DNA from: a virus
Virus record (IMG/VR): IMGVR_UViG_3300029893_000200
Location: 1 to 47,492 of that record
Reading direction: 5' to 3' (one strand)
Length of the DNA: 47,492 nucleotides
The translations under genes were made by a program, and so were the position numbers. Under the pieces are notes generated by a model. That model was not told the DNA's origin. It ran no database searches and saw only the letters and a program-made list of their open reading frames with translations. Below, in pieces: positions 10,281 through 43,205 of this stretch. Numbering within the stretch: the stretch's first letter is position 1; the number at the start of each line of letters is the position of its first letter.

Positions 10281-10528
10281 TAAAGCCCAACAAGGACACA
10301 GTTATTACAGGTGCTTTATTCCTCATCGGTGAAGCAGAGATAGAGATCGGTAAACTCACAACACCACAGCTTACACAGTGGGCAAGACAAAATGTTGCCG
10401 ATAGTGCAAGGGGGTATCTAAGAACTGCAAAGGAACAACTGAACACCCTCCTCGACGAGAACGTAGAAAAAGTATCCACACTCGTTGAAGAAGATGTGGT
10501 GATACTAGATGACGATACGGAATCCTAA
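10259..10528 (+). CDS. Hypothetical helical protein with acidic tail (89 aa)
   Basis: ATG follows GAAGGAGGCTAAACA. Mostly alpha-helical with a strongly acidic C-terminus (EEDVVILDDDTES). Acidic tails are common on phage single-strand-binding and replication accessory proteins, where they contact partners. The gene overlaps the start of the DNA polymerase by 20 bases in another frame, suggesting translational coupling to it. Family not recognised. Confidence 0.6.
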   Translation: MAKKQTVVKPNKDTVITGALFLIGEAEIEIGKLTTPQLTQWARQNVADSARGYLRTAKEQLNTLLDENVEKVSTLVEEDVVILDDDTES

Positions 10529-12383
10529 CTGTAACCTATGCGGACTTGGGGCAGGGGCAAACTATCCCTGCCTCACTGGTCGAGGAAACACCAAAGCTAA
10601 GCTGATGATAGTAGGACAGAACCCCGGTTACAATGAGGATCAGTGTGGCAGACCCTTTATCGGCAGAGCCGGTGAGTACCTTGACAACTCTCTCGCTCAA
10701 TACGGTATCCAACGGTCGGAGTGTTACGTGACTAACACCGTTAAGTGTTACACTGAAGGCAACCGACCACCGACAAAAGCCGAGGTCAAGGCTTGTGTCC
10801 CTTACTTGTGGAGGGAGATAAAAGCACTTAAACCACAGTACATAATGTTGCTTGGTAACACAGCTCTATCAGCTATTGGTATGTCGGGTGTGATGAAGTA
10901 CCGGGGCAGGGTAATAGAAAAGGAAGGCTTCTCGTTCTATCCAACAGTCCATCCAGCCGCCGTACTACGTAACCCTAAGAACGATACAATATTCAAACAG
11001 GATGTGGCGTACCTCGCCAACCTACTTAAAGGCAAAGACACCACACCACAGTATGACATACAGTACGTTACCGACATTGACCGTATTAAACAGATGTGTA
11101 AAGAGATAGATTCATCCAAGATGATAGCTTACGATATAGAGTCTGAGGACTTGGATGAAAGACAAGGTAGGATATGGCTTATGGGTGTAGCTGTTAGTCC
11201 TACAAGAGTATGGGTACTCCCAGTAGAACACCCCGACAACCGTGGAGCCGATTGGGTTTTTAAGTTCTATCTTAAAAGGATGATAGAAAAAATTAACTCA
11301 AAAACACGATGGAGGGTAGCACAGAACGGCAAGTTCGACAACAGGTGGTTAAAGCATCACATAGGCATAGCCCCTCGGATGAATTGGGATACCATGCTTG
11401 CCTCACACCTGCTCAATGAGAACACACCTAACGACCTTGAGTATTTGTCACAGACCATGCTCGGTATGCCTCCCTACAAGGGAAAGATAACATTCTCAGG
11501 CGATAAGTTATCCTCCCTTAAAGAGATGGGAGACTACTGCGGAGAGGACTGCTGCAACACCTACCGAATAGCACAGAAACAGATACCACAAGTAAGGGAC
11601 GATACCCGGTTATGGAAGCTCTATACTAAACTCATTATACCTTTGTCTAAAACACTTGAAGATGTGGAAGCGGTAGGCGTGTATATAGACACTGACAGGC
11701 TTGCCGAGCGTAAGCAGATATGTGAGGAAAAGATAAAGAGCTTCGAGGATGAAATGACATCTCTTGTACCGGATACCCTAGAACGTCCGGTCAAAAAGTA
11801 TAAGACCAAAGAAGATGTGGTACTCCCTTGGAACTTCAACAGTTACCAGCAGGTAGGCAAGATGCTCTTTAATGAGAAGGGATTTAATCTGACACCGTAC
11901 AGTCTTACACCTACCGGGGAGCCTTGCACCGATGACGAATCACTTACCTTTTTAAAAGACGATGCACCGGAGGAAGCGGTAAAGTTTATTGACACCCTTT
12001 CCACATACCGTACATGGCGTAACAAATACCTTGGTACTTATATAAGTGTGTGGGAAAGCAAACTGCAAGATAGTAGGGTATATACCTCATTCAAAATACA
12101 CGGTACAGTTACCGGGAGGCTCTCAGGAGACTTCCAGCAAGTACCGAGGGAGAAGTTCATCCGGTCGATTATCTCCACACCTCCCGGTTGGTCAATAGTT
12201 GAACTCGATTACAGCCAGCTTGAGTTAAGGCTAATAGCCTTTGCATCAGGCGATCCTCGAATGATAAGGGTTTATCAAACAGGAGGAGACATTCACACTG
12301 AAACCGCTTCAATCGTTACGCATAAAGCTATGAGTGAGATTACGAAAGAGGAGCGTTTCAAGAGCAAGGCGATCAACTTCGGT
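10509..12383 (+). CDS. UDG-like/family A DNA polymerase fusion, exon 1
   Basis: Residues 1-625 of an inferred 806-aa protein. Residues ~1-180 are a family 4-like uracil-DNA glycosylase domain: CNLCGL cysteines, LMIVGQNPG, GRPFIGRAGEYLD, NTVKCYTEG and PTVHPAA. Next comes a 3'-5' exonuclease with DIESED (Exo I), QNGKFDNRW (Exo II) and YCGEDC (Exo III). The polymerase domain follows, with motif A DYSQLELR (Asp567) and motif B K620-AINFG625. The apparent continuation after 12383 into a 23-residue tail is intron read-through, not protein. The reading frame resumes at 12966. Role: replicative polymerase. Confidence 0.9.
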
Positions 12384-12965
12384 GGTGACTTCACAGGCCG
12401 AAGTAAAACCCACTCAAAACGGGGAAACCTTACGAGGCAATCCCGTGCTGCGTAAGTAGTGTAGAGACTTATTACAGGCCGACTACTCTTAAAGAGTAAA
12501 TCAAACGAGCTTGTATATACGGTGGGCTTGGAGGAGTAAAAATGATATGCAATTACAGCATCAAAAACTGTAAAAGGTGTAACGAACCGTTCAAACCAAA
12601 CAGTGGTAGACAACTTTACTGTGAACCCTGCCAACGGGAAGTTAATACTGAAAGGTGTAAAGACAGGTATAGAAAAACTTACCAAAGAAAAGGGTATAAT
12701 CAGTATAGGGAAAATAATAATAACTGGAAGAACGGAATCGGAGTATTCAAGGATATTGCTTATAATAGCTTACCACGCCTATGTAATAGGTGCGGTTCAA
12801 CAAGGTTCTTAGTAGTCCATCATAGAGATCACAATAAAAGCAATAATGACCTTAGTAACCTTGAAATACTCTGTAAAAGTTGTCACCAGAAACACCACAA
12901 AGTATACTTAAACTTCTCCAAGAAGGTATAGTCCGGTACTCCCGGTGACGGGAGACAACACAAAG
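12384..12965 (+). other. Group I intron in DNA polymerase motif B
   Basis: The 582-base element interrupts the codons for NFG|LCYG. P1 is explicit: exon CTTCGGT (12377-12383) pairs with GCCGAAG (12397-12403), giving the required U.G wobble at the 5' splice site. P10 is also visible: intron CACAG (12392-12396) pairs with 3' exon CTGTG (12966-12970). The intron ends in G (12965). Core-like blocks CAATCCCGTGC (about 12440) and AAGGTATAGTCC (about 12924) resemble group IA P7/S sequences. It carries an HNH endonuclease gene whose 3' end runs into the core. Confidence 0.92.
12542..12931 (+). CDS. Intron-encoded HNH homing endonuclease
   Basis: A 129-aa protein within the group I intron, with ribosome binding site TTGGAGGAGTAAAA. 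The N-terminal zinc finger has CKRCNE and CEPC pairs. The C-terminal HNH domain has CNRCGS, VHHRDHNKSNNDLSNLEIL and CKSCHQKHH, containing the conserved His-His, Asn and His residues. It is likely to cut intron-less polymerase alleles and promote intron homing. The TAG stop falls inside the conserved intron core sequence GGTATAGTCC, so coding and ribozyme structure overlap. Confidence 0.9.
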   Translation: MICNYSIKNCKRCNEPFKPNSGRQLYCEPCQREVNTERCKDRYRKTYQRKGYNQYRENNNNWKNGIGVFKDIAYNSLPRLCNRCGSTRFLVVHHRDHNKSNNDLSNLEILCKSCHQKHHKVYLNFSKKV

Positions 12966-13511
12966 CTGTGTTACGGAATGTCAACGAACGGCTTCCGTAT
13001 TTATGCCAAGACGGATTATGGACTAGAACTTACACAAGAGGAGGCAGAACTCTTCCGTAAGAGATACTTCGAGGCTTATGTGGGACTGAAACCGTGGCAC
13101 GAAAGGCAAAGGGATATAGCCCGTAGGCTTGGGTATGTAAGACACGCAAATGGCCGTATCAGGAGGCTTCCCGATATTCATAGTACCGAGAAGGGGATAC
13201 AAGGCGAAGCAGAACGTCAAGCAATTAACTCACCCATTCAAGGTTTCGGCGGTGAGATTAACAACCTCGCTGCGGTAAGAGCAAAGAGACAAGTGGATTG
13301 GGATAAAGCTAAACTGTTTCTGCTTATACATGACTCTCAAATGTGGTATGTACGTAACGACTACATTGACACTTTCATACCTATGGTCAAGGGTATAATG
13401 GAGAACAGGGAAGCGTTGGTAGATGCTTTTGACGTAGAACTCACAGTACCTTTAGTAGTGGATGTTAAAACCGGCACACATTGGGCTGAACTTGAGGAAA
13501 TAAATTTATAA
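12966..13511 (+). CDS. Family A DNA polymerase, exon 2
   Basis: Residues 626-806 of the spliced protein. It resumes with LCYGMSTNGF, completing motif B (KAINFG-LCYG, the O helix), and includes INSPIQGFGGEINN and motif C LLIHDSQMWYV. The catalytic Asp is about residue 748; the usual Glu after it in HDE is Ser here (749), a substitution seen in some phage polymerases. The in-frame ATG at 12945 belongs to the intron, so the mature segment has no start codon of its own. A terminal TAA sits just before the promoter at 13519. Confidence 0.9.
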   Translation: MCYGMSTNGFRIYAKTDYGLELTQEEAELFRKRYFEAYVGLKPWHERQRDIARRLGYVRHANGRIRRLPDIHSTEKGIQGEAERQAINSPIQGFGGEINNLAAVRAKRQVDWDKAKLFLLIHDSQMWYVRNDYIDTFIPMVKGIMENREALVDAFDVELTVPLVVDVKTGTHWAELEEINL

Positions 13512-17592: not shown

Positions 17593-20500
17593 TTATCTTA
17601 AAGACCTAACATCGGGTACGGTTATACCCGAATCTCCGAGTAGTCTGATCAAAGCCCGTAGCCTGTCCCTCTCCTCGTATGTGGAAATCTCCCCTGCCCT
17701 CTGTGCTGAGAACAACTGTGGGCCTCCTAAGAAACTCATCATACGGGCTAATGCTCTCTCCTCGTCTGTTCCTTCGGCTCCTACATCCATACCTAACTGT
17801 GCTAAAAGTTCCGCAAGTATACCATATCCGGGTACTGCCGGTGACATTGTAGCCACATTACGATACAAGGGTATGTTCTCTAGGAGGTAAGCTAAGCCTC
17901 TCTTATCTAAGCCAGCCTCTCCCGGTAATCCTTCTGCCTTTTCACCTTCATAACTTTCGATAGGTGTGTTAGAGAAGAACTTCTTATTCATAGCCAGCTC
18001 AACAGGGGTTCTGAATATCGGGTTAATATTTGATAACATCTCAGAGAGAGTACGCCAATCCATCGGTAGTCTGGAGAGGTCTTGATACGGCAACGGGGAT
18101 GATAGGAACATCTCTCCTCCGGGTAGTTTCATAGCTTCGCTCTCTTCAAGGAATGACGGTACCTGCCCCGGATCCTGTTCCTCACTTAACCCTCTGTGGT
18201 ATTTTCCTACAGTGGCGAGCTTACCGGGCTGTTTAAAGGCTTCCTTGATCTGAAGCGGTATGTTCTTACGCATCCAAGTATAGAAAGGGAATACCCTCCG
18301 CATCCACGTTCTCTCAAAAGGTGTAAGATCGCCGTAGTCAAAGAGGTATGTCTTGACTTTTGCGGCTGCATCCTCGAAACTATCACCTTTCTTTAACCTG
18401 TCGAGGAACCCAAGAATACGGGAGGAGTTATCGGTTAACTTCGTAACAGTGACCATCTTACCTGTATACCACCACTTCTGAGGGTCAATCGTTGCAAATT
18501 GTTTCAATTTCGCCTTATTAATACTACCGTCAGGGTTACGCCAAGGCTCAAGCCTTAATGCTCCTGTCCTCGGCCCTTCCAGTGACCACCATCCGGTATC
18601 TATAACACCCTTAGCAGATGCCTGTCGCATAACCTCAAGGTAGGGTACATCTCTACCTCCGACTTTAACGGTCTTACCGAGTACCTCCGAAACATGAGGC
18701 AGAGCATCATTCTGTATGATAGCTACTGCCCCCTCCTTACTAGCAAGAGGATTAAAAGCATTATCCACATACGTCCAACCCTGTCTCGGCAGGTCGGGCA
18801 GTCCGGTGCTTGTAGGGAATATGATATGTCTGTCAAGTACAGAGGCCAGTCTAAATGACTCAGGGATACCACTTACGTTACGAGTACCCATAAGCCAAAG
18901 GTTATAGAGGTTACTCATAAAGTCACGAGGAACGTGACCCGGAGTGACCATATAGGCAAGGGTTCTGAACTGGCTTGTGGCATTATCAATGAACCGCAGA
19001 AAGGAGTTACGCTCTACAGGGTTGGTGTGGAGTTTGGTATAGGACTCCCATGCATCAGCCATCTCCACAGGGAGAGCGAATGTTTGAGAATTATCTGCCT
19101 CTCCCTTTTTACCTGTGGCAAGCTCCCGAAGAAAGGATGTCTCTTCTTCTGCTCCTACCTTTTCGATTGATACCCTGCCCGATTTATCACTCGTTTTGAC
19201 ACGATACAATCCGTAGCCTTCGGGTACGAATGTTTGACCGGCGTTACGCAACCTGCCCACATCCATACCGTACTCATTCCGTAGCATTTTGACAGCGTTT
19301 ACGGCTTGCTGTGAACGTATGAAACGCTCCTGTACGGTAGCTATTATGTTATATAAATCCTCTTCGAGTAGGGGTTTCATTCCTTTACTAACGAGGTACT
19401 CATTAACCTCCTGCGGAGACAAAGCACCTGACGTTACTTCTCTGTCTTTAAGGAATGGGTTTTTCTTAGAAGCCATTTCAAACAGGCTATCATTGAATGA
19501 ACCGACATCAGAATGTGGTACAAGCTGATCCACCGCACTACCGTATTTAAGTTTTAACACACCTGCCTCGGTCTTTGATGGAGGACGTAGGAACATATTC
19601 GGAACCCATGCAGGTAGCCATGTATCACGAATACCTTCCTGTGTGTACCACTTCTCCATATCTCTGCGAAGGTTATGAAAACGAAGGGATGCAAACGCCT
19701 CATTGTCCGTGAAACCTAGTTTTTTAATATCTTCTATAGCTTCAGTTTTGGGTTTAGTTTCAAACAGGTCTGTGAAACGTCCCTCCATTGAAAGCTCTCT
19801 TGTTAACTCCTTACGTCTGCTTAAAGGGATACCCTCGAAGTCTGCCCTTACAGCCTTAATATTCTCTTCAAGGTCACTTCTTGAAAGGTCATCCATACCT
19901 CTTACAATCTTTTGGAAGTTCTTCCCGGCCTCCCCTGCCGTGAGTATCTGCATCTCGTCACCATCAAGCATCCTCATAATACTATTTGTGGGCCGTGACG
20001 ATATGAAGCCTGTGTCAAATGCCTTACCAAGAGAAGTACCCATAGGTGTCTGCATGAATTTTTCACCCATACGAGAGAGGTTAGTTACAATAGGCTTACT
20101 GCCGGGGATGGCTGCCTGTGCTACTTTGGCATTGATAATAGGCACAGACAAACCAGCCGTTAGGTGCTTGTCTCCCGTTGGTAGCTTTTTCTTAGCCCCC
20201 ACACGCCCTAGCTCTGTCTCTAGAAGCTTACGGAAGTTATCGTAATCCTCTGGAGCTATCCTTTGTAACCGAAGGCTCTCATCGGCTTTCTTCAAAAGAC
20301 TCCCTACGAGATCACCCACACTCTCTCCGGTGACTCCCTCTGCCCTTTTACCAAGTGTCTCTGCAATGGTTTTAGCCGTGTCATCTCCAAAGGCTTTTTG
20401 AAGTAACGGTGTACCCCTTGACATACCCTTCGCCGCTGCCGAACCCACACCAAAGGTGAGCCAGTTAACGGGGTCTAAGGGGTTCAGCACAGAGCCAAGG

Positions 20501-20901
20501 AACCCAGCAATACCGGCAGGTGAGGGGGATACCTTAAACTTGTCAAACAAGGTAGTCTCAAATAAAGGCTCCTCGGATACCCCACGATGAACGGCTATAT
20601 CTCTCGGTTTAATACTCTCCACACCTCTAAAACCCCGTCCAAAGGCCGAGAGTGGGTCAAACTGTGGGGTGGAGGACAGGCTGGGAGCTAACAACTCCCC
20701 TGCCGCCCCTCCTGCCCCACGCTCGAACCTTTCAAGGAAGCCGAATACCTTTGAAAGAAAAGACTCACTGTTCTCAGGCTCGGCTTCCTGTCCATAACCA
20801 ATAGCCCGTAATCTTGTACGGGCATTGTCTACCTCTCGTTTTGTCCTTGATAAGTTTGTAGAGGCTCCCCCAAAGAGGGAATCATACATACCTGTTGCCA
20901 T
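17593..20901 (-). CDS. Large internal-virion (ejection)-type protein, ~1102 aa
   Basis: The start is taken at ATG 20901 (MATGMYDSLFGG) with GTAGGTGG upstream. It is the longest protein of the phage. Long helical stretches alternate with a middle region (LRFIDNATSQFRTLAYMVTPG through FMSNLYNLWLMGTRNV). That region looks like the LPD38 domain of large polyvalent phage proteins. The position is after the tail genes and before lysis genes, next to a coiled-coil protein. This fits the large inner-core/ejection proteins of podoviruses, which enter the host with the DNA. No lytic transglycosylase motif is evident. Confidence 0.6.
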   Translation of the reverse strand: MATGMYDSLFGGASTNLSRTKREVDNARTRLRAIGYGQEAEPENSESFLSKVFGFLERFERGAGGAAGELLAPSLSSTPQFDPLSAFGRGFRGVESIKPRDIAVHRGVSEEPLFETTLFDKFKVSPSPAGIAGFLGSVLNPLDPVNWLTFGVGSAAAKGMSRGTPLLQKAFGDDTAKTIAETLGKRAEGVTGESVGDLVGSLLKKADESLRLQRIAPEDYDNFRKLLETELGRVGAKKKLPTGDKHLTAGLSVPIINAKVAQAAIPGSKPIVTNLSRMGEKFMQTPMGTSLGKAFDTGFISSRPTNSIMRMLDGDEMQILTAGEAGKNFQKIVRGMDDLSRSDLEENIKAVRADFEGIPLSRRKELTRELSMEGRFTDLFETKPKTEAIEDIKKLGFTDNEAFASLRFHNLRRDMEKWYTQEGIRDTWLPAWVPNMFLRPPSKTEAGVLKLKYGSAVDQLVPHSDVGSFNDSLFEMASKKNPFLKDREVTSGALSPQEVNEYLVSKGMKPLLEEDLYNIIATVQERFIRSQQAVNAVKMLRNEYGMDVGRLRNAGQTFVPEGYGLYRVKTSDKSGRVSIEKVGAEEETSFLRELATGKKGEADNSQTFALPVEMADAWESYTKLHTNPVERNSFLRFIDNATSQFRTLAYMVTPGHVPRDFMSNLYNLWLMGTRNVSGIPESFRLASVLDRHIIFPTSTGLPDLPRQGWTYVDNAFNPLASKEGAVAIIQNDALPHVSEVLGKTVKVGGRDVPYLEVMRQASAKGVIDTGWWSLEGPRTGALRLEPWRNPDGSINKAKLKQFATIDPQKWWYTGKMVTVTKLTDNSSRILGFLDRLKKGDSFEDAAAKVKTYLFDYGDLTPFERTWMRRVFPFYTWMRKNIPLQIKEAFKQPGKLATVGKYHRGLSEEQDPGQVPSFLEESEAMKLPGGEMFLSSPLPYQDLSRLPMDWRTLSEMLSNINPIFRTPVELAMNKKFFSNTPIESYEGEKAEGLPGEAGLDKRGLAYLLENIPLYRNVATMSPAVPGYGILAELLAQLGMDVGAEGTDEERALARMMSFLGGPQLFSAQRAGEISTYEERDRLRALIRLLGDSGITVPDVRSLR

Positions 20902-20910
20902 TTGTACCAC

Positions 20911-22281
20911 CTACTTTAATAGGTTTAGAATATAACTAAGAGGGTTATTTACCGGAATATCATACTTACTCTGGGTGGTTTGAGTACTAGGGGCTAATCC
21001 TGTTTTATTCGTGTACCACTGATCAAACCCTTGTGCAAGGGAGCCTCCGCTACCTCCTTGTTTTACAGGCCATGTTCTGTCGATAGCTGCTTGGATATAA
21101 GCTCTGTCGGCTGCCGATATGATACCACCATAGTTACCTAAGTAATTCTCTGCATCTTTACGACTCTTAGATGCAAGAACTGAATCCAGCACTTTAATAC
21201 CGGCCTCGGTCATATTACCAACCATACTAGCAGAACCACCACCGCTACCACCACCGGAACTTCCCCTCATACTGGCAAGCTCTCTCTGAAGTGCTTGGTT
21301 GGCTTCGGCTATTCTCATATCTGCTGTCTTTGTGCCTGTGGGTATATCCAATCCTAAACCTGCAAGGGTTTTAGATAGATTATCGTCTACCACACCTACA
21401 GATGACAGGAGGGAGATAGCTCTTTGTAGATTCTGTCCTGCCTGTTCAATATCAAGACCTCTGCCTTGGAGTCCTAATTCCTGAGAACGGAATCCTCCAG
21501 AACCGTACTCACTGTTTGTTCGTAACGATTCGTTACTAAGTCTACCTTGCTCGATACCAAGCATACCCTGACGATACTTCATTTCATCACTTGCATTAAG
21601 AGCTTGAAGGGCAAGAGACTTATTTCGGTATGTCTGATCAGCGATAGCTTTCGCCACATCTGCCTCATACCCTGCCCTTTGAAGTGCCTCTTGGTAAGCA
21701 TCAGCCATTAATTCTGCTTCAATGGATGCAAGAGTACGGTCAAGCATAGACCTTGCTTCATTCTCCTGCTGAAACCGGGCATCACTGGAAAGGAACCCCG
21801 ATGCCGATAACTGATTACGAACCATCGGCAAAGTCTTACTATCGAAATCAGCTTTAGCTTGATTTTTTCTCTGATCCATGAGGTTTTGTTTTGTACCGAG
21901 TACCTCTTGGTAAATCTGACTAATATTAGGCATAGCCATAGGTTGTTGTTGCCCCATTAACTGATTAATTAAAGCCCACAGTTGTTCCATCTCAGGTTGT
22001 TGCTGTAGTGGTGGTTTTTGCATATAGGGGGCAAATGCTGTAGCCTCTGCTTGATTAACTATACCCTTAACCCTATCAGGCAACGTATCGTAGGAAGGTA
22101 ATGGTGATGTGTTACCCCCATACTCACCATAAGCTATCGGCCTATCTGTAGGAGCTGCTGGCGCACCTACACGGGATAGTTCTGTCTGTGCCTTAGACTG
22201 TAGTTGTGGTGATAATTCTTGAAACCAGTTAGGGTTATACCCTGAGATACTTCCGGGGTCAATAGTTCTTGTAACTGCCAA
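20911..22281 (-). CDS. Internal-virion-like coiled-coil protein (456 aa)
   Basis: TTG start at 22281 after GGAGGTGTTTAACC. The protein is Gln/Ala-rich and dominated by long helices, with a proline/glutamine-rich segment near residues 90-120 and a Gly/Ser linker (SGGGSGGGS) near residue 345. It ends in TAG. Genes of this type between tail fibres and the largest virion protein in podoviruses encode the second ejection protein of the inner core. Assigned by context and composition, not by a conserved motif. Confidence 0.55.
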   Translation of the reverse strand: MAVTRTIDPGSISGYNPNWFQELSPQLQSKAQTELSRVGAPAAPTDRPIAYGEYGGNTSPLPSYDTLPDRVKGIVNQAEATAFAPYMQKPPLQQQPEMEQLWALINQLMGQQQPMAMPNISQIYQEVLGTKQNLMDQRKNQAKADFDSKTLPMVRNQLSASGFLSSDARFQQENEARSMLDRTLASIEAELMADAYQEALQRAGYEADVAKAIADQTYRNKSLALQALNASDEMKYRQGMLGIEQGRLSNESLRTNSEYGSGGFRSQELGLQGRGLDIEQAGQNLQRAISLLSSVGVVDDNLSKTLAGLGLDIPTGTKTADMRIAEANQALQRELASMRGSSGGGSGGGSASMVGNMTEAGIKVLDSVLASKSRKDAENYLGNYGGIISAADRAYIQAAIDRTWPVKQGGSGGSLAQGFDQWYTNKTGLAPSTQTTQSKYDIPVNNPLSYILNLLK

Positions 22282-22296
22282 GGTTAAACACCTCCT

Positions 22297-23019
22297 TTAT
22301 AGGTTAAGGAACCTCTTGACATGTTCGTACTTAATACCGTAGCCAAGACCCACAATCTGTTTTTGTGCATCAAACCAACGAGCTACTACCACACCTACCA
22401 GATCACCATACTCGTTAAAAACAGGCCCACCGGAGTTACCCGGATTAATAAGTGCATTGGTCTGAAAGTTCCTGCCCTCGCTTCTGTCATCGTGACTCAC
22501 TTGACCTACCGAGAGAGTATCGGTATGACCCGCAGGTGAACCGATAAGACCTACGGCTTCTCCGTACCTCGCCGCACGTTTAGCCAGCTTCAGTATCGGT
22601 TTCTTAACAGCTACCTTTACCAAAGCAAGGTCGAAGTATGAGTCTTTCTTTACCACTTTACCGAGGTAATTAGGTGAACCGTCCTTGATTATTGTGACCT
22701 CGGAAAAATCACCTACAACATGATTGTTGGTAAGAATGTAACCGGCATCGTCGAAGAAAGCCTGTTGGTCAACATACGCACCACTACCAAGACCGGCAGG
22801 TGTGGTAATTGTTACAACTGACTGTCTAACTGTCGGGGCCACATCTGAAAAATCACCATCACGCTTAGCCTTTAGGTATAATAGTGTGGCTATCTGCGCT
22901 CTTGTAACAGGCTCGTCAGGCTTAAAAGTACCATCAGGAAAACCGTACATAATACCGTTTTCCACACACCACCTCAAGGCTTCGGAATACCAAGCATCTA
23001 CCGGGACATCTTTGAACAT
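22297..23019 (-). CDS. SLH domain-trypsin-like serine protease fusion
   Basis: The 240-aa protein starts at ATG 23019 after GGAGGGG. Residues 2-50 are one S-layer-homology domain (FKDVPVDAWYSEAL, GIMYGFPDGTFKPDEPVTRAQ). Residues ~65-240 are a DegP/trypsin-like protease with the complete triad: TNNH100VVG, YFD130LALVK and NPGNS196GGP. There is no signal peptide, so it is either carried on the virion or released at lysis. SLH domains bind pyruvylated secondary wall polymer in Gram-positive S-layered cells. Its position among tail genes suggests a tail-borne enzyme that docks at the wall and cleaves S-layer or other surface protein. Confidence 0.9.
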   Translation of the reverse strand: MFKDVPVDAWYSEALRWCVENGIMYGFPDGTFKPDEPVTRAQIATLLYLKAKRDGDFSDVAPTVRQSVVTITTPAGLGSGAYVDQQAFFDDAGYILTNNHVVGDFSEVTIIKDGSPNYLGKVVKKDSYFDLALVKVAVKKPILKLAKRAARYGEAVGLIGSPAGHTDTLSVGQVSHDDRSEGRNFQTNALINPGNSGGPVFNEYGDLVGVVVARWFDAQKQIVGLGYGIKYEHVKRFLNL

Positions 23020-23165
23020 ATACACCCCTCCAACTCTTCAAGCACTACAAGGAGTAAATCTCTTAACTCCTCGTTAGTCACTTTATCCTTCTGTTTCATG
23101 GCAACCATAAGTTGTTTATGTGTTTCTTTCTTTAGTGTCTTTTCGCCTTTTTCAACTTTTATCAC
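22998..23165 (-). CDS. Small Lys/Leu-rich protein (55 aa)
   Basis: GTG start at 23165 follows GGAGGTGGTGATTGA and overlaps the stop of the upstream gene (GTGA). It is charged, helical, ends in TAG, and overlaps the start of the SLH protease gene by 22 bases. The arrangement implies translational coupling across three genes. No family recognised. Confidence 0.55.
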   Translation of the reverse strand: MIKVEKGEKTLKKETHKQLMVAMKQKDKVTNEELRDLLLVVLEELEGCICSKMSR

Positions 23166-23518
23166 TCAATCACCACCTCCACCTCGCCCCAAGCGTTTCC
23201 GCATCGGGCTGTCAGTTTAAAGGTTCCCGGTTCTGCGCTTTGAAATTGTGTTTCTGCGATACCGTCAACCGGGGTCAGTTCTTCCGATTGGCCTTGGCAT
23301 GATATGATAATTGGGTTTTCTGGTTGTACAGTTTCATACTGACCAATTTCCAAGTTAAACCTCTGGAAAGTTAGCGAAACGTTTATTACTTGGTTCAACG
23401 GTACTGGGTTAACTTCTGGGGTTATTTCTATTTTTTCAATTGGGAAAACTGGCTTAGTTATCCGGCTACCACTTGGAGCTATTACTATGCCATAAACATA
23501 ATCACCCTGAATTATCAT
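23162..23518 (-). CDS. Ig-like beta-sandwich tail protein (118 aa)
   Basis: The ATG at 23518 overlaps the stop of the discoidin-bearing protein (ATGA). The sequence is strand-rich with an Ig-like pattern: MIIQGDYVYGIVIAP, PVNQ-like turns, INVSLTFQRF, then GTFKLTARCGNAWGEVEVVIE, as in bacterial Ig-like domains on phage tails. Likely an accessory fibre or tail-tip adhesin. Assignment rests on strand pattern and context only. Confidence 0.5.
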   Translation of the reverse strand: MIIQGDYVYGIVIAPSGSRITKPVFPIEKIEITPEVNPVPLNQVINVSLTFQRFNLEIGQYETVQPENPIIISCQGQSEELTPVDGIAETQFQSAEPGTFKLTARCGNAWGEVEVVIE

Positions 23519-24774
23519 GATAACACCACCGCCACTCCCATAATATTTACGCCTGATGTCGTGTTTATCTCATACTTAAAACTGCCCTTAAAACCTATAG
23601 GAATAAGTCCTATCGGCCCTGTATTAGCGGCATTTTGCCTAACATGGCCCCAGTTTCCTATCGGGTCATAAAGTGGGCTAAACTCCCCGATACCACCATT
23701 TCCATACGTACGCCATCCCTCGTCTTGTTTAATTGCCAAAACGGAACTTGATGTGTCATCTAATACTGCACCGTCAACTGTTAAAACAACTCTACCTTGC
23801 CTGTCCGTGGTATCTGCTGACGCAATAGCAACATACGCTAAACCCTCTCCAGTCACATCAATAACCGTTTGTAGCGAATTGGAGTTTGTTTTTAGTCTTG
23901 CGTATGTTGGTGTTTTGGCTGTCCAATCAAACGCTTGCGGTATAGAACCTATCCAAGTCCAAAAAGGCATATGCAACTCTGGTGTCGTATCACTTGTACT
24001 AACCCTTGTAAGTGTAAACACCAACCGCAAAGTTTTGTAAGTTTTAGTGTCAATACCCGACAAATCGCCACCATCGGTCACACTTGCAATTAATACGTTA
24101 TTGCTCGTATCTTTAACCGCACAAGTAACGGTTGTATTCGCCGGGGTTACTGTTTTAAAGTATAATTTTAACCATTCGTAAACATCCTCGGTAACGTCAA
24201 GGGTTACGGTTCCTGATAAAGGGGGACCGTACAGCCCTATCTCAGCAATATCGGCTTGTGAAGCACTTCTAACTGCTGTTACATATATACGATAATATAA
24301 ATATGCTGTCGTATTCGCTATGTTGTATATCAGTATTGCCCCTTCTGCTGGAAGAGCAACGCTGGTTTGCGTGTCAAGGTCTGTCCAAGCTGACCCATCA
24401 TTTGACCCTTGCAACTTCCAGCTATCCGGGAAGGACGCGTTGCCCGGATTCCTTACTTGCAACGTATATCTGTTCACAACAACCGCAGACGGGAATTGGT
24501 ATGTTATTGTTGGGGTAGACGAAGGGTATCCACACCAATAAGTGCTTGCGTTTTGGTCAAACGCTTTCCATGCATAGTTGGTGCCATCTGTTACGTTTGC
24601 GCTAACTATACCAGATGGTTCTGTGTTACTTGTCATAGCTGGTGTTAAAATCGTTTGCCCCAAAGTCGCAACACTAGATAAAATCATGGTACCACTTAAA
24701 ACCGCACCATTAAAACCACCGTTTATCTGCAATCCCGGTGTACTACCAATCCTTACAATATCTCCACTTCCCAT
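23515..24774 (-). CDS. Tail fibre/adhesin with F5/8 type C (discoidin) domain
   Basis: A 419-aa protein. Residues ~50-180 match the discoidin (F5/8C) carbohydrate-binding fold: AWKAFDQNASTYWCGYPS, ITYQFPSAVVVNRYTLQV, SFPDSWKLQGSNDGSAWTDL and YYRIYVTAV. The remaining regions are beta-rich and typical of receptor-binding fibres. It is located between the collar/fibre protein and the SLH protease, so it likely recognises a glycan on the host surface. Confidence 0.75.
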   Translation of the reverse strand: MGSGDIVRIGSTPGLQINGGFNGAVLSGTMILSSVATLGQTILTPAMTSNTEPSGIVSANVTDGTNYAWKAFDQNASTYWCGYPSSTPTITYQFPSAVVVNRYTLQVRNPGNASFPDSWKLQGSNDGSAWTDLDTQTSVALPAEGAILIYNIANTTAYLYYRIYVTAVRSASQADIAEIGLYGPPLSGTVTLDVTEDVYEWLKLYFKTVTPANTTVTCAVKDTSNNVLIASVTDGGDLSGIDTKTYKTLRLVFTLTRVSTSDTTPELHMPFWTWIGSIPQAFDWTAKTPTYARLKTNSNSLQTVIDVTGEGLAYVAIASADTTDRQGRVVLTVDGAVLDDTSSSVLAIKQDEGWRTYGNGGIGEFSPLYDPIGNWGHVRQNAANTGPIGLIPIGFKGSFKYEINTTSGVNIMGVAVVLS

Positions 24775-24776
24775 AC

Positions 24777-25688
24777 TTACACCTCCACCAAATATAAACC
24801 GTCATTATCAACTCTTAAAAGATATTGAACACTTGTGTCTTGATTGACTATATGATGAGATTCTATGTTGTCATTTATATGAGTAGTTAAATTACTCTGC
24901 ACCGCATCTGCTTTTGCTTGCGCTCCTGCTGGTGTTTCAGCACCTATACTTGCTGGTGTTATTTCATCTGTTCCACCTGATGCGTGTTGGTCTGCGTGTG
25001 CTGCTGGTACAGCTTCACCTGTAGCAATAATAGTAATCGTTTTTGCCGTGTTATTAGGAGTTATTGTGATTCCTGTTCCAGCCACTAAATCAACATTACC
25101 GCCAGCATTAGAAACCCCATCAACCGAAGCTATGGCCCCTACCTGTGCAGATGTAACACTGTGAGGGTTATTGGTAAGCGCGCCGTGAGTGTTTACTTTA
25201 GCTTGCGCTCCTGCCGGAGTTTCGTGTCCAGCATGAGGAGCAGAGGCGGCTATATGGGTATCAACTTGTGCATGTGTATTTGTCCCTTTATCGGATAGGT
25301 TTGTGTGGCTTACTGTAGCCCCATTGTTTGCTGTACCGTTATGACTGTGACCTGTAGAAGCATGAAACTTATCCCACAAACCTGATATACTAGAGGCGGC
25401 ACTGTCATACCAGTTAGTTACACTTCCTTTAACAGCCTTCACACTTTTAGCAAGCCAGCTAAGTAAACTTGTTAAATCACCTGTGCTTGCATCTCCAACT
25501 AACGTTTGATCTACTGTTCTATTGCCTATCTTTGCATCGGTAACAGAACCGTCTGCCAGATTATCAGTATCTATCCCACCATTCAATACCGCTAAGATGT
25601 TATCAATGTCCTGTTCTAATGCATCTTGACCGGCGGAACCTTGAGATAATTCACCATCACTAGCACTAAAAACCCTTGAAATCGGCAC
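24777..25688 (-). CDS. Tail fibre with His/Asn-type repeats (303 aa)
   Basis: GTG start at 25688 after GAGAGGTGATGAGACA. The middle contains repeated segments such as SHTNLSDKGTNTHAQVDTHI, APHAGHETPAGAQAKVNTH and ETPAGAQAKADAVQSNL, the His-rich, Thr/Ala-rich repeats common in trimeric phage tail fibres. A short C-terminal beta segment ends the protein. Role: fibre shaft/base connecting the tail to the discoidin-type adhesin. Confidence 0.7.
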   Translation of the reverse strand: MPISRVFSASDGELSQGSAGQDALEQDIDNILAVLNGGIDTDNLADGSVTDAKIGNRTVDQTLVGDASTGDLTSLLSWLAKSVKAVKGSVTNWYDSAASSISGLWDKFHASTGHSHNGTANNGATVSHTNLSDKGTNTHAQVDTHIAASAPHAGHETPAGAQAKVNTHGALTNNPHSVTSAQVGAIASVDGVSNAGGNVDLVAGTGITITPNNTAKTITIIATGEAVPAAHADQHASGGTDEITPASIGAETPAGAQAKADAVQSNLTTHINDNIESHHIVNQDTSVQYLLRVDNDGLYLVEV

Positions 25689-36928: not shown

Positions 36929-37525
36929 TCACCTTCTTTCAAGATTTAATGCAGAACTTAAACCAAAAGCAATTTCATTACCGACTGCATAAGCAAAATC
37001 AATGTCTTGTAGTAGTTTACGCTCTTTCTCGTTGTCTATAAACAGTATCTCAAGAAGAGAGGAATCACAATGCTGATCATCCGTCTGTTCTATAACATAG
37101 TAATTCTTATACTTTTTACCCCTATCTACAATACCATACTGTTTGAGGTATGCCATAGTACAATCGTGTATTACATTACGTTTATAATCGGAATAGCTAC
37201 CACCCTCTGAAACCTTGACGTAACTCTCAAAACCTTTACCGCCGCCGCTGTTTGCGTGTATAGATAAGTAATAAGTAGCACCTACTGTTTTTGCAAACAC
37301 CACAGGTATAACAAGTTCGTCCCTCTTGTTTGACGGTATCCACATACTCGGTTGAATAATATACACTGTAGCTTTATAAGATGTCAAAGCCTTTTTAACC
37401 CCATTGGCTACCCACCAGTTAAATAACTTCTCATTAAAACCACCACTTACAGCACCCGGATCAGAACCTCCTTGCTAATGGCCCGGATCAATAACAATAA
37501 TATGTTTGTTACTATCCTTAGACAC
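36929..37525 (-). pseudogene. N-acetylmuramoyl-L-alanine amidase (Amidase_3) with an in-frame amber codon
   Basis: The full frame from GTG 37525 encodes 198 codons, with TAG at codon 17 (37475-37477). The sequence reads HIIVIDPGH(TAG)QGGSDPGAV: the amber follows directly after the zinc-ligand His16 of the motif I DPGH. The rest of the fold is intact: YYLSIHANSGGG (second His), EQTDDQHCDSSLLEILFIDN (catalytic Glu). An internal start cannot restore the first zinc ligand, so a functional enzyme needs readthrough or suppression. Ribosome binding site AAGGAGGTG precedes GTG 37525, which overlaps the HNH gene's stop. Likely the phage endolysin. Confidence 0.75.
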
Positions 37526-38001
37526 TAGCACACCACCTCCTTAATAAATCTACCATAATTGTCCCTACTACGCTTATGCAATATATTATTATGACAGGAT
37601 ACACACACAACTTGAAGATTATCTAATGAATTATTTTTTCTATTTTTATCTTTATGATGGATATGAACTCCTTCTGTTACACCACAAAACTCACATACCA
37701 TTTCTTTATGGATAAGTGCGATCCTACGCCATGTGTCCCCTTTCATAGAACTCCTACCGTCTTTGTAGGAGGGGGCAAGGACTCCTTTTCTACCAAACAT
37801 AGGATTGTTACAACCAGAAACATCAGCATGATTATCACTTATTCTCTTACGAACATCATCCATTTTAGAATAATTATTATACAGGTTACGAAAAGTAACA
37901 CCACAGCTGATAGAACAAAATAAACCACGACCCTTTCGCACTACACAGCAATCAACAAGAAAAATACTCTCACACTGTTTACAAATACGTATGAATTTCA
38001 T
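37525..38001 (-). CDS. Free-standing HNH homing endonuclease
   Basis: A 158-aa protein with N-terminal zinc knuckles (CKQCES, CSISCG), a NUMOD3-like segment GCNNPMFGRKGVLAPSYKDGRS, and an HNH domain CEFCGVTEGVHIHHKDKNRKNN, NLQVVCVSCHNNI. Such genes insert between phage genes and spread by cutting homologous DNA. It lies between the methyltransferase and the amidase, sharing a base (TAG/GTG) with the amidase start. Adjacent insertion may have disturbed the amidase region. Confidence 0.88.
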   Translation of the reverse strand: MKFIRICKQCESIFLVDCCVVRKGRGLFCSISCGVTFRNLYNNYSKMDDVRKRISDNHADVSGCNNPMFGRKGVLAPSYKDGRSSMKGDTWRRIALIHKEMVCEFCGVTEGVHIHHKDKNRKNNSLDNLQVVCVSCHNNILHKRSRDNYGRFIKEVVC

Positions 38002-38694: not shown

Positions 38695-39381
38695 TTATAA
38701 CACCCCCCTCCGTTTCTTTAACAAGTATTCAGCGTATTCGAGATCGGCTAAAGTATCAATATCTACCGACCGTTCTCTCGGCATGAAGTAAGGAACTACC
38801 CTACCGCCGTAAAAATCCTTGCACTGTTTTAAAGAATCAGCATAACCAAAAATAACAGCCCCGTTGTGGTGATAAAGTGTTCTCCACTCCTGTGACTGCT
38901 CTCTTATCTTGACAGGAAACTCCTTCTCTAAAGAGCCTGACTCTTCCACAGATAATGCTTGGTATGGGTGGTAGTAGTATTCGGTAACACTCATTACAAA
39001 ATCACACTCTGCCGACTTGAATATCTTATATGCTTTACGAATATCACCAGCAGTACGTAAAGGGCATGTAGGAAGAAGGACAGAAAAAGTAGCCATCCGT
39101 ATAGAATAAAACTCAGTTAACAACCACACAACGTCAACAACTGTATCCTTATCGCCTACAAACTTACTACCTCTATCATAATTGTATACATCCATCTCGT
39201 CTGCCACACTAAGAGCTATAGGGTCATCCGATGTAACAATAATCTCGTCAAACACCCCACTGTCCTTCGCTGCTTTAATAGTGTAGTATATTAAAGGTTT
39301 ACCGTCACACATGATAACATTCTTCCGGGGGAGTCTCTTACTGCCCATACGGGCAGGGATTATACAAATAGGATTAGACAC
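38695..39381 (-). CDS. CMP-nonulosonic acid synthetase (NeuA/PseF/LegF-type)
   Basis: A 228-aa cytidylyltransferase starting at GTG 39381. Signature IIPARMGSKRLPRKNV and GKPLIYYTIKAAK, with DEIIVTSDDPIA, LPTCPLRTAGDI and DIDTLADLEYAEYLL at the C-terminus. These are the conserved motifs of acylneuraminate/pseudaminate/legionaminate cytidylyltransferases, which activate a 9-carbon acid as CMP-sugar. Which acid is used cannot be settled from this alone. It is the activating step of the pathway whose other enzymes are upstream in the operon. Confidence 0.88.
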   Translation of the reverse strand: MSNPICIIPARMGSKRLPRKNVIMCDGKPLIYYTIKAAKDSGVFDEIIVTSDDPIALSVADEMDVYNYDRGSKFVGDKDTVVDVVWLLTEFYSIRMATFSVLLPTCPLRTAGDIRKAYKIFKSAECDFVMSVTEYYYHPYQALSVEESGSLEKEFPVKIREQSQEWRTLYHHNGAVIFGYADSLKQCKDFYGGRVVPYFMPRERSVDIDTLADLEYAEYLLKKRRGVL

Positions 39382-39538
39382 TACTAATCACCGCCTGTAA
39401 CAAACAACCAAACATACCAAGTAAAAACAATAAAACTGAAAGAGCTAGAAGCAGAAAAGTAACAACCATCATCCTCTCTAACCACTTATCAACATTATCA
39501 ACAACACCATCTATCCAACCCGTTATGCGCTCAAACAT
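39374..39538 (-). CDS. Small membrane protein between NeuB and NeuA (54 aa)
   Basis: ATG at 39538 follows GAGGTGGGAGG. A short charged N-terminus is followed by MMVVTFLLLALSVLLFLLG, a single membrane helix. The end overlaps the start of the CMP-sugar synthetase. Function unknown; a membrane partner of the sugar enzymes or a regulator is possible. Confidence 0.55.
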   Translation of the reverse strand: MFERITGWIDGVVDNVDKWLERMMVVTFLLLALSVLLFLLGMFGCLLQAVISSV

Positions 39539-40589
39539 CCTCCCACCTCACCATCTCATTCCTCTTTACGTCACGGACTAAAGGATTTCCAATAAACCTG
39601 TCAGCCGTAAGAGGTGATATACCTGTCCCCGGTCTACGGCAAGCGAGGTGCTTTTCCTCCACCACAGTGCCTTCGGAGAGGTCGGCATCATACACAAGGG
39701 ACGTAAAGTATTTGTCTTTCATACGCAAGTCCTCAAGAGAGGGTTTAACAGTGTAATCACCAAGCATATCCTTAACAGCCCTCATCATTCCCACATACCC
39801 CCCAAGTTTAGCTGTGTGGAGTGCTTTATTGTGGTGATGTCCGGTATTTCCCGGAGTTATGGTTATACGTTTCTCAATATAGGAAGCACCTAATGTAATA
39901 GCTATAGTCTCAGGTAAATCAATTACCCTGTCAGAAGCAAACCCGACAGGGAGATTAAATGTATTACGAAGGTAAGGTATAGTGTTCATGTTGTACTCAG
40001 GTAAAGCACCATGACACTCATGCACAAGCATTACTTGTTTGTTGCCTTCCTTCTCAATAATGTGAAGCATTTGAAGTATCTCACCGATAAGAGAAGGGCC
40101 GAGATCAATCAGTATTGGCTTTCCTGTCCTAGCTACCCGCTTAATTAAGGGATAATGTCGGATGTCCCATGCACCTATCTTGTAAGCAGGTATCCCTAGC
40201 TGTTCGGCAAGATCAACGTCAGGAAGGTTGTCTACCGATACAAAGAGGGTAATATTAATGCTCTTAGCATAACGCACCATTTTCGCCCACTCGTCGGGAG
40301 TAAACATAAGCCCCTTAAACATCTGATACATATTAACCTTCTGAATACCCATAGAACTCTCGTACTCGTACATAACACCTTTATCTGCCATGAACTCGTC
40401 AGGATTAATCATCTGAAATTTCACAGCATCCATACCGGCCTGAGCAGAAGCACGAATTAAATCAAGAGCAGTATCTAAATCACCATTGGCTGTAGTGCCT
40501 ACCTCCGCCGCAAGATACAAAGGTGCACCTCTGCCTATCATCTTACCCTCAATACCTATATACGGGTAAAAGTTTGTTGTTATCTGCAC
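39531..40589 (-). CDS. NeuB-type nonulosonic acid synthase, full length (PseI/LegI-like)
   Basis: A 352-aa protein. TIM-barrel part: LYLAAEVGTTANGDLDTALD, DAVKFQMINPDEF, FVSVDNLPDVDLAEQLGIPAYKIG and MLVHECHGALPEYNMNT. The C-terminal domain SEGTVVEEKHLACRRPGTGISP is the antifreeze-like (SAF) lid found in full-length synthases. Family reaction: condenses phosphoenolpyruvate with a 6-carbon amino sugar to give a 9-carbon acid. It is next to PseC, consistent with a PseI-type role. Start chosen at GTG 40589; an internal ATG 16 codons in is a weaker option. Confidence 0.85.
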   Translation of the reverse strand: MQITTNFYPYIGIEGKMIGRGAPLYLAAEVGTTANGDLDTALDLIRASAQAGMDAVKFQMINPDEFMADKGVMYEYESSMGIQKVNMYQMFKGLMFTPDEWAKMVRYAKSINITLFVSVDNLPDVDLAEQLGIPAYKIGAWDIRHYPLIKRVARTGKPILIDLGPSLIGEILQMLHIIEKEGNKQVMLVHECHGALPEYNMNTIPYLRNTFNLPVGFASDRVIDLPETIAITLGASYIEKRITITPGNTGHHHNKALHTAKLGGYVGMMRAVKDMLGDYTVKPSLEDLRMKDKYFTSLVYDADLSEGTVVEEKHLACRRPGTGISPLTADRFIGNPLVRDVKRNEMVRWEDV

Positions 40590-41626
40590 CTCTGAACAAC
40601 CTCCCTCACATTTTTTATTACGAAGCCCACCTCTTCGTCAGTCATTGTTGGGTATAAAGGCAGACTCAAACACTCTTTAGCATACTCAGTAGCATTTACA
40701 AACCTGCTATAACAGCTATAATAAGGGTGTCTATAAATAGGTTGGTAGTGTATTTGTGTTCCTATACCCCTCTGATAAAGTAACTCTTTCACGGTATCAC
40801 GGTTAGGCACACGAATAATATAAAGGTGTAAGGCGTGATTTATAAGGTTCGGTGTTTTTACCACACCTTTTAACTCATTGTTGTACCTTAAAGCTATAAG
40901 CTGTCTACGTGTGCTCCACTCACTTAGTTTTTTTATCTGACTCATTCCCAAAGCACAGCTAATATCAGACATACGATAGTTATGTCCTATACTTACTGTC
41001 ATACGTCTATCGTCCCTTCCGTTATCACGGAACCGTAGTAGACGTTTAAGAACTCTCCTGTCATTAGTAGTCACAGCACCACCTTCTCCTGTGGTAATGT
41101 GTTTAGCAGGGTGAAAGCTATAAACAACCGCATCCGATTTACTGTTATAAATGTAACCGAAAGCATGGCAAGCATCCTCCACAACCCTACAACCTCTCCT
41201 ATAAGCTATCTTCCTGATAGCCTCCATATCACACAGCTTGCCTCCTAAATGAACGGGAACAATAATATCCCCCTCGTCTGCCTTAAACTCAATATCACCA
41301 ATATCCATACAGTAAGTATCGGGGTCAATATCGGTAAGATAAACCCTAGCACCTTGGGATACGACAGCATTAGCTGTTGCCACAAAAGTTATAGCAGGTA
41401 CAAAAACCTTTTGAAAATTAAGATCATCACTAACCGCATAGTAGGCAGCTTCGAGAGCAGACGTACCGGAGTTGAAAACTACCGCATACAAAGAGCCTGT
41501 TACTTCTTGTATCTTACGCTCGAACTCTTCAACAAGCGGCCCTTGGGTTATCTTTTCCGAACGCAAACACCTAACAACTGCTTGTATATCGTCCTCGTCT
41601 ATACAGTGTTTAGTGTAAGGAATCAT
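40580..41626 (-). CDS. DegT/DnrJ-family aminotransferase, PseC-like
   Basis: A 348-aa PLP enzyme: IPYTKHCIDEDDIQAVVRCL, SEKITQGPLVEEFERKI, AVVFNSGTSALEAAYYAV, VFVPAITFVATANAV, SFHPAKHITTGEGGAV (PLP lysine). The N-terminus with ITQGP is typical of PseC, the UDP-4-keto-sugar 4-aminotransferase. It overlaps PseB (TAATG) and the downstream NeuB, so the three are translated together. Role: adds the 4-amino group in nonulosonic acid precursor synthesis. Confidence 0.85.
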   Translation of the reverse strand: MIPYTKHCIDEDDIQAVVRCLRSEKITQGPLVEEFERKIQEVTGSLYAVVFNSGTSALEAAYYAVSDDLNFQKVFVPAITFVATANAVVSQGARVYLTDIDPDTYCMDIGDIEFKADEGDIIVPVHLGGKLCDMEAIRKIAYRRGCRVVEDACHAFGYIYNSKSDAVVYSFHPAKHITTGEGGAVTTNDRRVLKRLLRFRDNGRDDRRMTVSIGHNYRMSDISCALGMSQIKKLSEWSTRRQLIALRYNNELKGVVKTPNLINHALHLYIIRVPNRDTVKELLYQRGIGTQIHYQPIYRHPYYSCYSRFVNATEYAKECLSLPLYPTMTDEEVGFVIKNVREVVQRCR

Positions 41627-42567
41627 TACATATCACTCCTATACTCAAAACCTTGAGGAACCGATACCCCTTTTACCGAACCCCTATCCCACCAGTTAAA
41701 CTCAGGCTCAATCACATAGTAATTACCGCAGTCTATTGTACGCCTTCCTTCCTCCTTGGTGATAAGAACTTCGTGCAGTTTTTCTCCGGGACGGGTGCCG
41801 CTGCAAGACACAACACAATCAGGGGCAATAGCATTTACCACATTCAAGATAGACTTTGCTTTTAGCTTTGGTACAAATACCTCGCCACCTTGCATATTAC
41901 CGATACCCTTCAAAACAAAACCAACCGCATCCGACAGAGTAACCCAAAAACGAGTCATGTTAACATCGGTAACTGTAACAATACCATTCCCTCTTTGCTG
42001 TTCAAAGAGCTTAACTACACTACCCCTGCTTCCCCACACGTTTCCGTACCTTACAATCGAGAACAGGGTACGCTCATCCATACCACCAGCATAAGCATTA
42101 CCGTTAATGAATAGCTTTTCCATGCACAGCTTGGTAGCACCATAGAGATTAACCGGGTTACATGCCTTATCCGTTGAGAGGGCTACCACCTTCTTAACAC
42201 CGCAGTCAATAGCAGCCTCGATTATGTTCTGCGCTCCAATGATATTTGTCTTGATAGCTTCGAAAGGGTTGTATTCCGCTGTGGGTACTTGCTTTAATGC
42301 CGCAGCGTGTACCACAATATCTACGCCTTGGAACGCTCTGCAAAGTCTGTCCTTGTCACGAATGTCCCCAATGAAGAAACGCAGACGGTTGTCATTGAAC
42401 TGTTGCCCCATCTCCCATTGTTTCAACTCATCACGGGAGAATACTACAACCTGTCTTGGATTATAGTTATTAAGTAGAGTCCTTACGAACTCCTTACCGA
42501 AGGAACCCGTACCTCCGGTAATCAATACTCTCTTTTCGTTTGTAGCTAACACACGTTCATCCACCAA
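41626..42567 (-). CDS. PseB-type UDP-GlcNAc 4,6-dehydratase
   Basis: A 313-aa SDR enzyme: RVLITGGTGSFGKEFVRTLL (NAD site), VVVFSRDELKQWEMGQQF, VVHAAALKQVPTAEYNPFEA, STDKACNPVNLYGATKLCME (catalytic Tyr/Lys in YGATK). The AALKQVP and NPVNLYGATK blocks are diagnostic of PseB/FlaA1-like inverting dehydratases. It performs the first step of pseudaminic acid synthesis. The TTG start overlaps the WbqC-like gene end. Confidence 0.87.
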   Translation of the reverse strand: MVDERVLATNEKRVLITGGTGSFGKEFVRTLLNNYNPRQVVVFSRDELKQWEMGQQFNDNRLRFFIGDIRDKDRLCRAFQGVDIVVHAAALKQVPTAEYNPFEAIKTNIIGAQNIIEAAIDCGVKKVVALSTDKACNPVNLYGATKLCMEKLFINGNAYAGGMDERTLFSIVRYGNVWGSRGSVVKLFEQQRGNGIVTVTDVNMTRFWVTLSDAVGFVLKGIGNMQGGEVFVPKLKAKSILNVVNAIAPDCVVSCSGTRPGEKLHEVLITKEEGRRTIDCGNYYVIEPEFNWWDRGSVKGVSVPQGFEYRSDM

Positions 42568-43205
42568 TCAATCACTCCCATATTCGGTACAAATTCTTTA
42601 GTCCGCTGTTGCTTATACGTGGGATGCTCGAACTCATGGTAAACAATCTCAATACCTGCTTTTTTGAAATCCTCTTCCTTTAAGTAATCCTTACCGAACG
42701 GCCCTGAGAGGTAGGTACTTGCTCCAAGGTGTTTACAGACACTCAATACGAGTTCTGATCCTTTACCTCCAACGGGTAAATCACTTGCTCGGCATATTTT
42801 TGTATCTATACCCATAATAAAAACCCAATGTAATAGTTGATAGTGACAGAGGTCAGCTATATTTATAACAGGGGAGTGGTAGTATAACTGATCAAGCAAT
42901 AACTGTTTAAACCCAAAACGGGAACACCTCTTGTAGTTACAAATAATAGAATCAAGATGCTTACTTTTCCAATCTGTTGAGTTATCAATCAGCATATCTT
43001 TAATAGTTGATTGAGTGTGTCCCTTGAGCCTCACCGGAACAGTAAGCCATTGTGGGCCTTGTGGTGTGAGTATCTTATTACGATTGATAAATGAGTTCTT
43101 CTCAAATTGCACATTATCAAGAACCACAAAAACGTCAGACTTCTTGATACGGTCAAGATAGCCTAACCACGGGAGGTACGCTGGCTGGTGAATCGACACT
43201 ATCAT
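42546..43205 (-). CDS. WbqC-like family protein
   Basis: A 219-aa protein starting MIVSIHQPAYLPWLGYLDRI and VFVVLDNVQFEKNSFINRNK, the defining WbqC N-terminus. WbqC genes occur in O-antigen and nonulosonic acid loci; their biochemical role is poorly known, perhaps acylation or transfer. Ribosome binding site AAGGAGTATTACT precedes ATG. The stop TAG sits within the PseB start region. Confidence 0.8.
   Translation of the reverse strand: MIVSIHQPAYLPWLGYLDRIKKSDVFVVLDNVQFEKNSFINRNKILTPQGPQWLTVPVRLKGHTQSTIKDMLIDNSTDWKSKHLDSIICNYKRCSRFGFKQLLLDQLYYHSPVINIADLCHYQLLHWVFIMGIDTKICRASDLPVGGKGSELVLSVCKHLGASTYLSGPFGKDYLKEEDFKKAGIEIVYHEFEHPTYKQQRTKEFVPNMGVIDWWMNVC

Follow-up and report, generated by a model that had tools for sequence, protein, structure and literature searches.

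Introduction

Proteases of the HtrA type are trimers. LysBT1, a prophage endolysin of Brevibacillus thermoruber, carries a single C-terminal S-layer-homology (SLH) domain, trimerises and binds the cell wall; within its TRAE motif the arginine is needed for cell binding and the glutamate is not (PMC12285257). A C. difficile endolysin with a host-derived wall anchor works beneath the S-layer (PMC9045149). In the available text of two surveys, the lysis system consists of holin, endolysin and spanin, and bacterial S-layers figure solely in the part of a coat or a receptor (PMC6116005, PMC12596118); the available text of the second, a 2025 survey of viral lytic proteins, contains neither SLH nor trypsin (PMC12596118). 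Our literature search, mostly of open-access papers, returned LysBT1 and S-layer-dependent phages, and no description of a phage SLH-protease. How phages leave S-layered Gram-positive cells, or enter them, has been little studied.

Here we describe an SLH-protease gene on an IMG/VR virus contig of 47,492 bases (the window, meaning the whole stretch of DNA analysed), together with a recurring family of relatives. Judging from domain make-up and gene neighbourhoods, this family of SLH-anchored, PDZ-less HtrA-type phage proteases probably works together with the endolysin and targets the host envelope as infection ends.

Domain structure of the SLH-protease

The gene and the parts of its product are located as follows.

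22297..23019, minus strand: SLH-protease gene; ATG start, 240 aa (242 aa from an upstream GTG at 23025)
22888..23016, minus strand: single SLH domain, aa 4-46 in GTG numbering; W12, GIMYG, TRAQ with R42; Pfam SLH 1.1e-14
22306..22839, minus strand: HtrA/DegS-like trypsin-fold protease domain without PDZ, aa 63-240; Trypsin_2, 1l1j and DegS-deltaPDZ matches
22720..22722, minus strand: catalytic His codon, His100 from the ATG; invariant (23/23)
22630..22632, minus strand: catalytic Asp codon, Asp130 from the ATG; invariant (23/23)
22432..22434, minus strand: catalytic Ser codon, Ser196 from the ATG, in GNSGG; invariant (23/23)

The open reading frame spans 22297-23025 on the minus strand, and the GTG at 23025 abuts the ribosome-binding site; the ATG at 23019, following GGAGGGGTGTAT, is the better start. 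An in-frame stop lies 4-5 codons upstream of the GTG, just 5' of the gene start, and no signal peptide is therefore encoded, in agreement with the earlier note on this DNA. The protein has no export signal or membrane anchor, and its N-terminus is the SLH domain. Modification of the host surface by a lysogen was also considered, and is unlikely for a protein with no signal peptide.

The SLH profile, the conserved tryptophan (W12), the GIMYG loop and the motif arginine R42 (codon at 22900-22902, minus strand) are all present. The motif reads TRAQ and not TRAE, with the glutamate replaced and the arginine kept, and Pfam finds one SLH copy, compared with three in tandem in S-layer proteins. Retention of W12, the GIMYG loop and R42 supports the original suggestion that the domain would target secondary wall polymer.

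Pfam Trypsin_2 matched aa 80-212 (E=6.6e-23), and T. maritima HtrA (1l1j) was matched with E = 6.6e-20. AlphaFold2 modelling with the family alignment gave a mean pLDDT of 88, and the best PDB fold matches of the model were DegS-deltaPDZ chains (E=4.9e-15; TM 0.66 for the query and 0.77 for the target). The trypsin-like double barrel, the His-Asp-Ser triad and the GNSGG motif that mark S1C proteases are all present, and the protein ends with the protease domain, with no C-terminal PDZ. Counted from the ATG, the triad residues are exactly His100, Asp130 and Ser196, as first reported (H102, D132 and S198 from the GTG), and the triad is apparently competent. The SLH and Trypsin_2 matches are both far above cut-off and bear out the description of one SLH domain joined to a DegP-like protease; by sequence and predicted fold, the protein is a serine protease of the HtrA/DegS type that lacks a PDZ domain and is preceded by an SLH domain. 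Pfam detected only the SLH and protease domains, and no peptidoglycan-cleaving domain.

Genomic neighbourhood in the window phage

The late genes are podovirus-like, and include terminase, a P22/SU10-type portal, a Mu gpT-like capsid protein, an SU10 adaptor, fibre and F5/8C proteins. After the fibre and F5/8C genes, the order continues with the SLH-protease and then the 456-aa and 1105-aa proteins. The fibre block flanking the SLH-protease gene occupies 23162-25688.

22998..23165, minus strand: 55-aa ORF overlapping the SLH-protease start; no family match
23162..23518, minus strand: 118-aa protein closing the fibre block; a single-sequence model reached a pLDDT of just 47, with strands predicted
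23515..24774, minus strand: protein with an F5/8 type C domain, probably a receptor-binding or fibre protein; Pfam 1.2e-10, PHROG tail 3.6e-28
24777..25688, minus strand: tail fibre protein; PHROG tail fibre 1.6e-10
20911..22281, minus strand: 456-aa protein immediately downstream; by position only, probably an internal or ejection protein
17593..20910, minus strand: 1105-aa protein, probable ejection protein; homologues in L017 (37%, 6e-24) and G005 (32%, 3e-153)

The homologues of the 1105-aa protein occupy the same relative place in these two podovirus contigs, and the position of the 456-aa protein matches that of a 518-aa protein in L017 and a 493-aa protein in G005. The earlier note had placed the gene between tail fibre and ejection genes; the flanks are as it described, and we infer the ejection role of the downstream proteins.

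This setting bears on an entry role, in which the protease would be carried by the tail, dock on wall polymer and cut S-layer or other surface proteins so that the short tail reaches the membrane. The location between fibre genes and those of the ~500-aa and ~1050-1100-aa probable ejection proteins, shared by the window and L017, speaks for it, as do the lack of a signal peptide and the place of the gene on the late strand, with a gap of 15 bases to the next gene. Set against the positions of homologues described below, we regard this role as unlikely.

No holin or endolysin gene was found adjoining the SLH-protease gene in the window phage. About 14 kb separate that gene from the phage's own endolysin gene, located just upstream of the gene for the terminase small subunit (TerS), and the SLH-protease was rejected as the phage's endolysin because this separate gene is present.

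36929..37522, minus strand: Amidase_3 endolysin gene, upstream of TerS; Pfam 2.1e-13, PHROG endolysin 1.1e-15

The Amidase_3 gene contains an in-frame TAG at 37475-37477, inside the catalytic motif (DPGH*QGGSDPGA), and an HNH endonuclease gene lies immediately upstream (37525-38001). TAG is the terminal stop in only 4 of the 39 genes checked. Elsewhere in the window, a sugar cluster (38695-45080, minus strand) encodes two NeuB synthases, a cytidylyltransferase, a DegT aminotransferase, Polysacc_synt_2, a PIG-L deacetylase, WbqC and a hexapeptide transferase, and looks like a pathway for nonulosonic (pseudaminic/legionaminic-type) acid synthesis. A DNA polymerase A with a fused uracil-DNA glycosylase domain is encoded at 10509-13511 (plus strand); an HNH ORF (12542-12931) separates the two ORFs into which the polymerase is split, while the G005 polymerase likewise forms two ORFs, with no HNH gene between them.

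Distribution and conservation of the family

No relatives emerged when viral contigs were scanned with the window protein alone, with the portal or with the 1105-aa protein, and an HtrA-seeded alignment was therefore used. The first alignment, of the window protein (P0001) with four HtrA proteins, matched further viral contigs across both domains. A second, built from these matches, retrieved 19 further distinct IMG/VR contigs with E <= 6e-22 across SLH and protease, separated by a gap from plain HtrA proteins, which matched mostly from about residue 76 only; a third scan gave the same contigs. With bacterial genomes and the window included, the family comprises about 24 distinct loci, and many of its contigs are fragments.

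Alignment of 23 members showed the triad, GNSGG, the SLH arginine R42 and G28 to be invariant (23/23). The SLH tryptophan W12 is kept in 21 of the 23, and the motif glutamate position holds E in 18 and Q in five, the window protein among the latter. In two members (L182 and L186) the SLH domain is too worn for Pfam and visible only by alignment.

Among other collections, the best tblastn phage match with long coverage (MT835589) was dropped, as it looks like actinobacterial DNA, and the remaining phage-collection matches were mostly plain HtrA/DegQ/DegS genes, several of them probably bacterial contamination. Plasmid matches aligned 97% of the query at ~30% identity, and are annotated only as trypsin-like proteases. 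The scan of bacterial genome contigs was swamped by chromosomal HtrA; one true member was recovered via a Syntrophopropionicum genome, and one prophage host is Candidatus Syntrophopropionicum ammoniitolerans.

Two bacterial genomes contain chromosomal relatives (L252 and L253) with the same SLH-protease order and a signal peptide, whereas the phage copies have no signal peptide. Most simply, the phages would use the same design and dispense with the signal, delivery being left to a holin or the virion. The protease-domain tree is weakly supported; it suggests several separate fusion events, their number not being firm, and does not settle the direction of transfer.

Several members have distinctive surroundings. 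A signal-less SLH-protease gene at L216:1483-2199 (minus strand) lies amid chromosomal-looking genes (ParB-like, membrane proteins), and is perhaps a stranded phage gene. On L176 (5236-6174 and 6356-7090, plus strand), the neighbour of the SLH-protease is a protein of 312 aa that carries an SLH domain at its C-terminus and no recognised enzyme domain, the pair sitting amid methylase and polymerase genes. Two small ORFs separate the SLH-protease of a Syntrophopropionicum prophage from what is apparently a reverse transcriptase (YMDD; L240:8051-9178, minus strand), which adjoins tail genes and may be part of a diversity-generating element.

Linkage to lysis genes

Lysis linkage was observed at 17 of the 24 loci, made up of five intact fusions, one remnant and 11 adjacent arrangements. 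In the intact fusions, the protease is joined to a peptidoglycan hydrolase as M23-SLH-protease (L015, L016), Amidase_3-SLH-protease (L177), Amidase_2-SLH-like-protease with the amidase in front (L182) or SLH-protease-Amidase_2 with the amidase behind (L021); L215 keeps an in-frame amidase remnant. In a search of the family contig records, some of them partial contigs, for Amidase_3, Amidase_2 and M23, no record yielded more than one such protein. In all five fusion records, the sole protein found of these three families, the ones sought across the records, is the fusion itself, which is therefore likely to be the endolysin there.

Each of the 11 further loci has a gene for a holin, XhlA or an endolysin no more than two genes away from the SLH-protease. 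A holin_4_1 gene stands beside L019 and homologues beside L022, L175 and L178; XhlA is found at L179 and L241, and weak holin matches at L180. Endolysin genes lie beside L020, L181, L185 and L240, where the XhlA-like calls at the last two are by position only and were not confirmed by Pfam. Some neighbouring endolysins have one SLH domain of their own, namely an Amidase_3 (L178), an Amidase_2 (L020) and a glucosaminidase (L181). In a Syntrophopropionicum prophage, the SLH-protease gene overlaps an Amidase_3 gene, and two prophages of one genome carry near-identical SLH-proteases, each beside a different SLH endolysin. Fusion to three kinds of hydrolase and repeated linkage to holin, XhlA or endolysin genes point to a function in lysis. 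Against this, the fused hydrolases could in principle be virion lysins.

The same comparison bears on entry. The closest phages found to carry the gene, L183/G005 and L186 (TerL 53-55% and portal 50-51% identical), have it upstream of TerS, and the tail location is therefore not conserved; in G005, the window's 1105-aa protein has a 1074-aa homologue, after which come the amidase and a probable holin. The gene order of L017 resembles that of the window, within a podovirus tail block, yet the L019 protein of a siphovirus, 87% identical to that of L017, sits between a fibre gene and those of a holin and an M23 endolysin. Fusion of the protease to the sole endolysin-type hydrolase in five phages likewise counts against entry. 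With the tail position not conserved and the homologues linked to lysis, the first proposal, of a virion tail protein cutting surface proteins for entry, is not supported; on these comparisons the protein more likely aids phage exit than tail entry. Seven loci have no lysis neighbour (the window, L017, L176, L183, L184, L186 and L216), and an entry role may therefore still apply to the window lineage.

Proposed role at the end of infection

In the lysis-stage pathway that we favour, the protease would be made in the cytosol, as the lack of a signal indicates, from the late-gene strand and presumably late in infection. Opening of the holin, or the endolysin's own route, would then bring it to the wall, as the holin linkage suggests, released together with the endolysin or as part of it. 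Here the single SLH domains may form trimers, in keeping with the threefold HtrA assembly, and attach to secondary cell wall polymer, by analogy with LysBT1 and given the conserved arginine. Since LysBT1 forms a trimer with one SLH domain per chain and HtrA proteases are also trimers, an SLH-protease homotrimer would rebuild the three-SLH head that S-layer proteins carry, atop a protease trimer. Finally, the protease, held at the S-layer attachment zone, would cut S-layer or other wall-anchored proteins, so that the emptied envelope opens and the phages exit. Protease and hydrolase may be joined as one protein or act as two that share an SLH anchor; the window phage has the stand-alone form of the protease, in an unusual place. 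The host of the window phage is assumed to have an S-layer.

Other activities at the same stage can be envisaged. The protease might activate or trim phage or host wall proteins, for example autolysins or the endolysin, and leave the S-layer undissolved. Fusion or adjacency of the SLH-protease to endolysins would fit such processing, and HtrA-type proteases can have few specific substrates, DegS being an example; no cleavage site was identified, and the wall anchor argues for a wall-bound substrate, making this very improbable. Alternatively, protease freed at lysis might strip receptors from cell debris and so prevent re-adsorption, while the SLH anchor spares healthy cells. The linkage to lysis cassettes again implies release at lysis, and the host-origin wall anchor of the C. 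difficile endolysin was proposed to spare uninfected cells (PMC9045149). Fusion to a hydrolase suggests a direct part in wall opening, and we consider receptor clearing improbable.

A more specific form of the lysis-stage role, which we put forward tentatively as a little short of an even chance, is a dedicated S-layer lysis protease of phages that infect S-layered bacteria. It would provide a third lysis function next to those of holin and endolysin, with a host S-layer anchor for homing and a threefold SLH-HtrA assembly, and would sometimes form one three-domain enzyme with the endolysin. For the passage of phages across S-layered envelopes, a recurring phage family that couples a host S-layer anchor to a protease, and sometimes to an endolysin, offers a concrete candidate, with S196A as the active-site control. 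Against S-layered bacteria, the family would bring a further lysin design that is of practical interest.

Comparison with known systems

The protease domain is related by sequence or fold to phage proteins in PHROG 11383 and PHROG 9683, and to the BFVD entry 'Periplasmic serine protease' of Podoviridae sp. ct9P15, all annotated only as proteases. The chromosomal proteases L252 and L253 (~272 aa) have the domain order of the phage copies, but differ in the signal peptide at their start and in their chromosomal gene surroundings. With the spanins of Gram-negative phages there is a loose analogy only, the shared idea being a third step in lysis, directed at the outermost layer of the envelope; spanins are not proteases, and share no sequence or mechanistic relation with the SLH-protease. 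The window protein resembles HtrA, DegP and DegS (MEROPS S1C) in its trypsin-like fold, H-D-S triad and GNSGG, and differs from them in having no PDZ, signal peptide or membrane anchor and in the SLH domain placed in front. Like LysBT1, it is phage-encoded and carries one SLH domain with a TRAE-type arginine, the demonstrated trimer being that of LysBT1; the enzyme of LysBT1 is an amidase with no protease, whereas the window protein is a protease with no peptidoglycan hydrolase.
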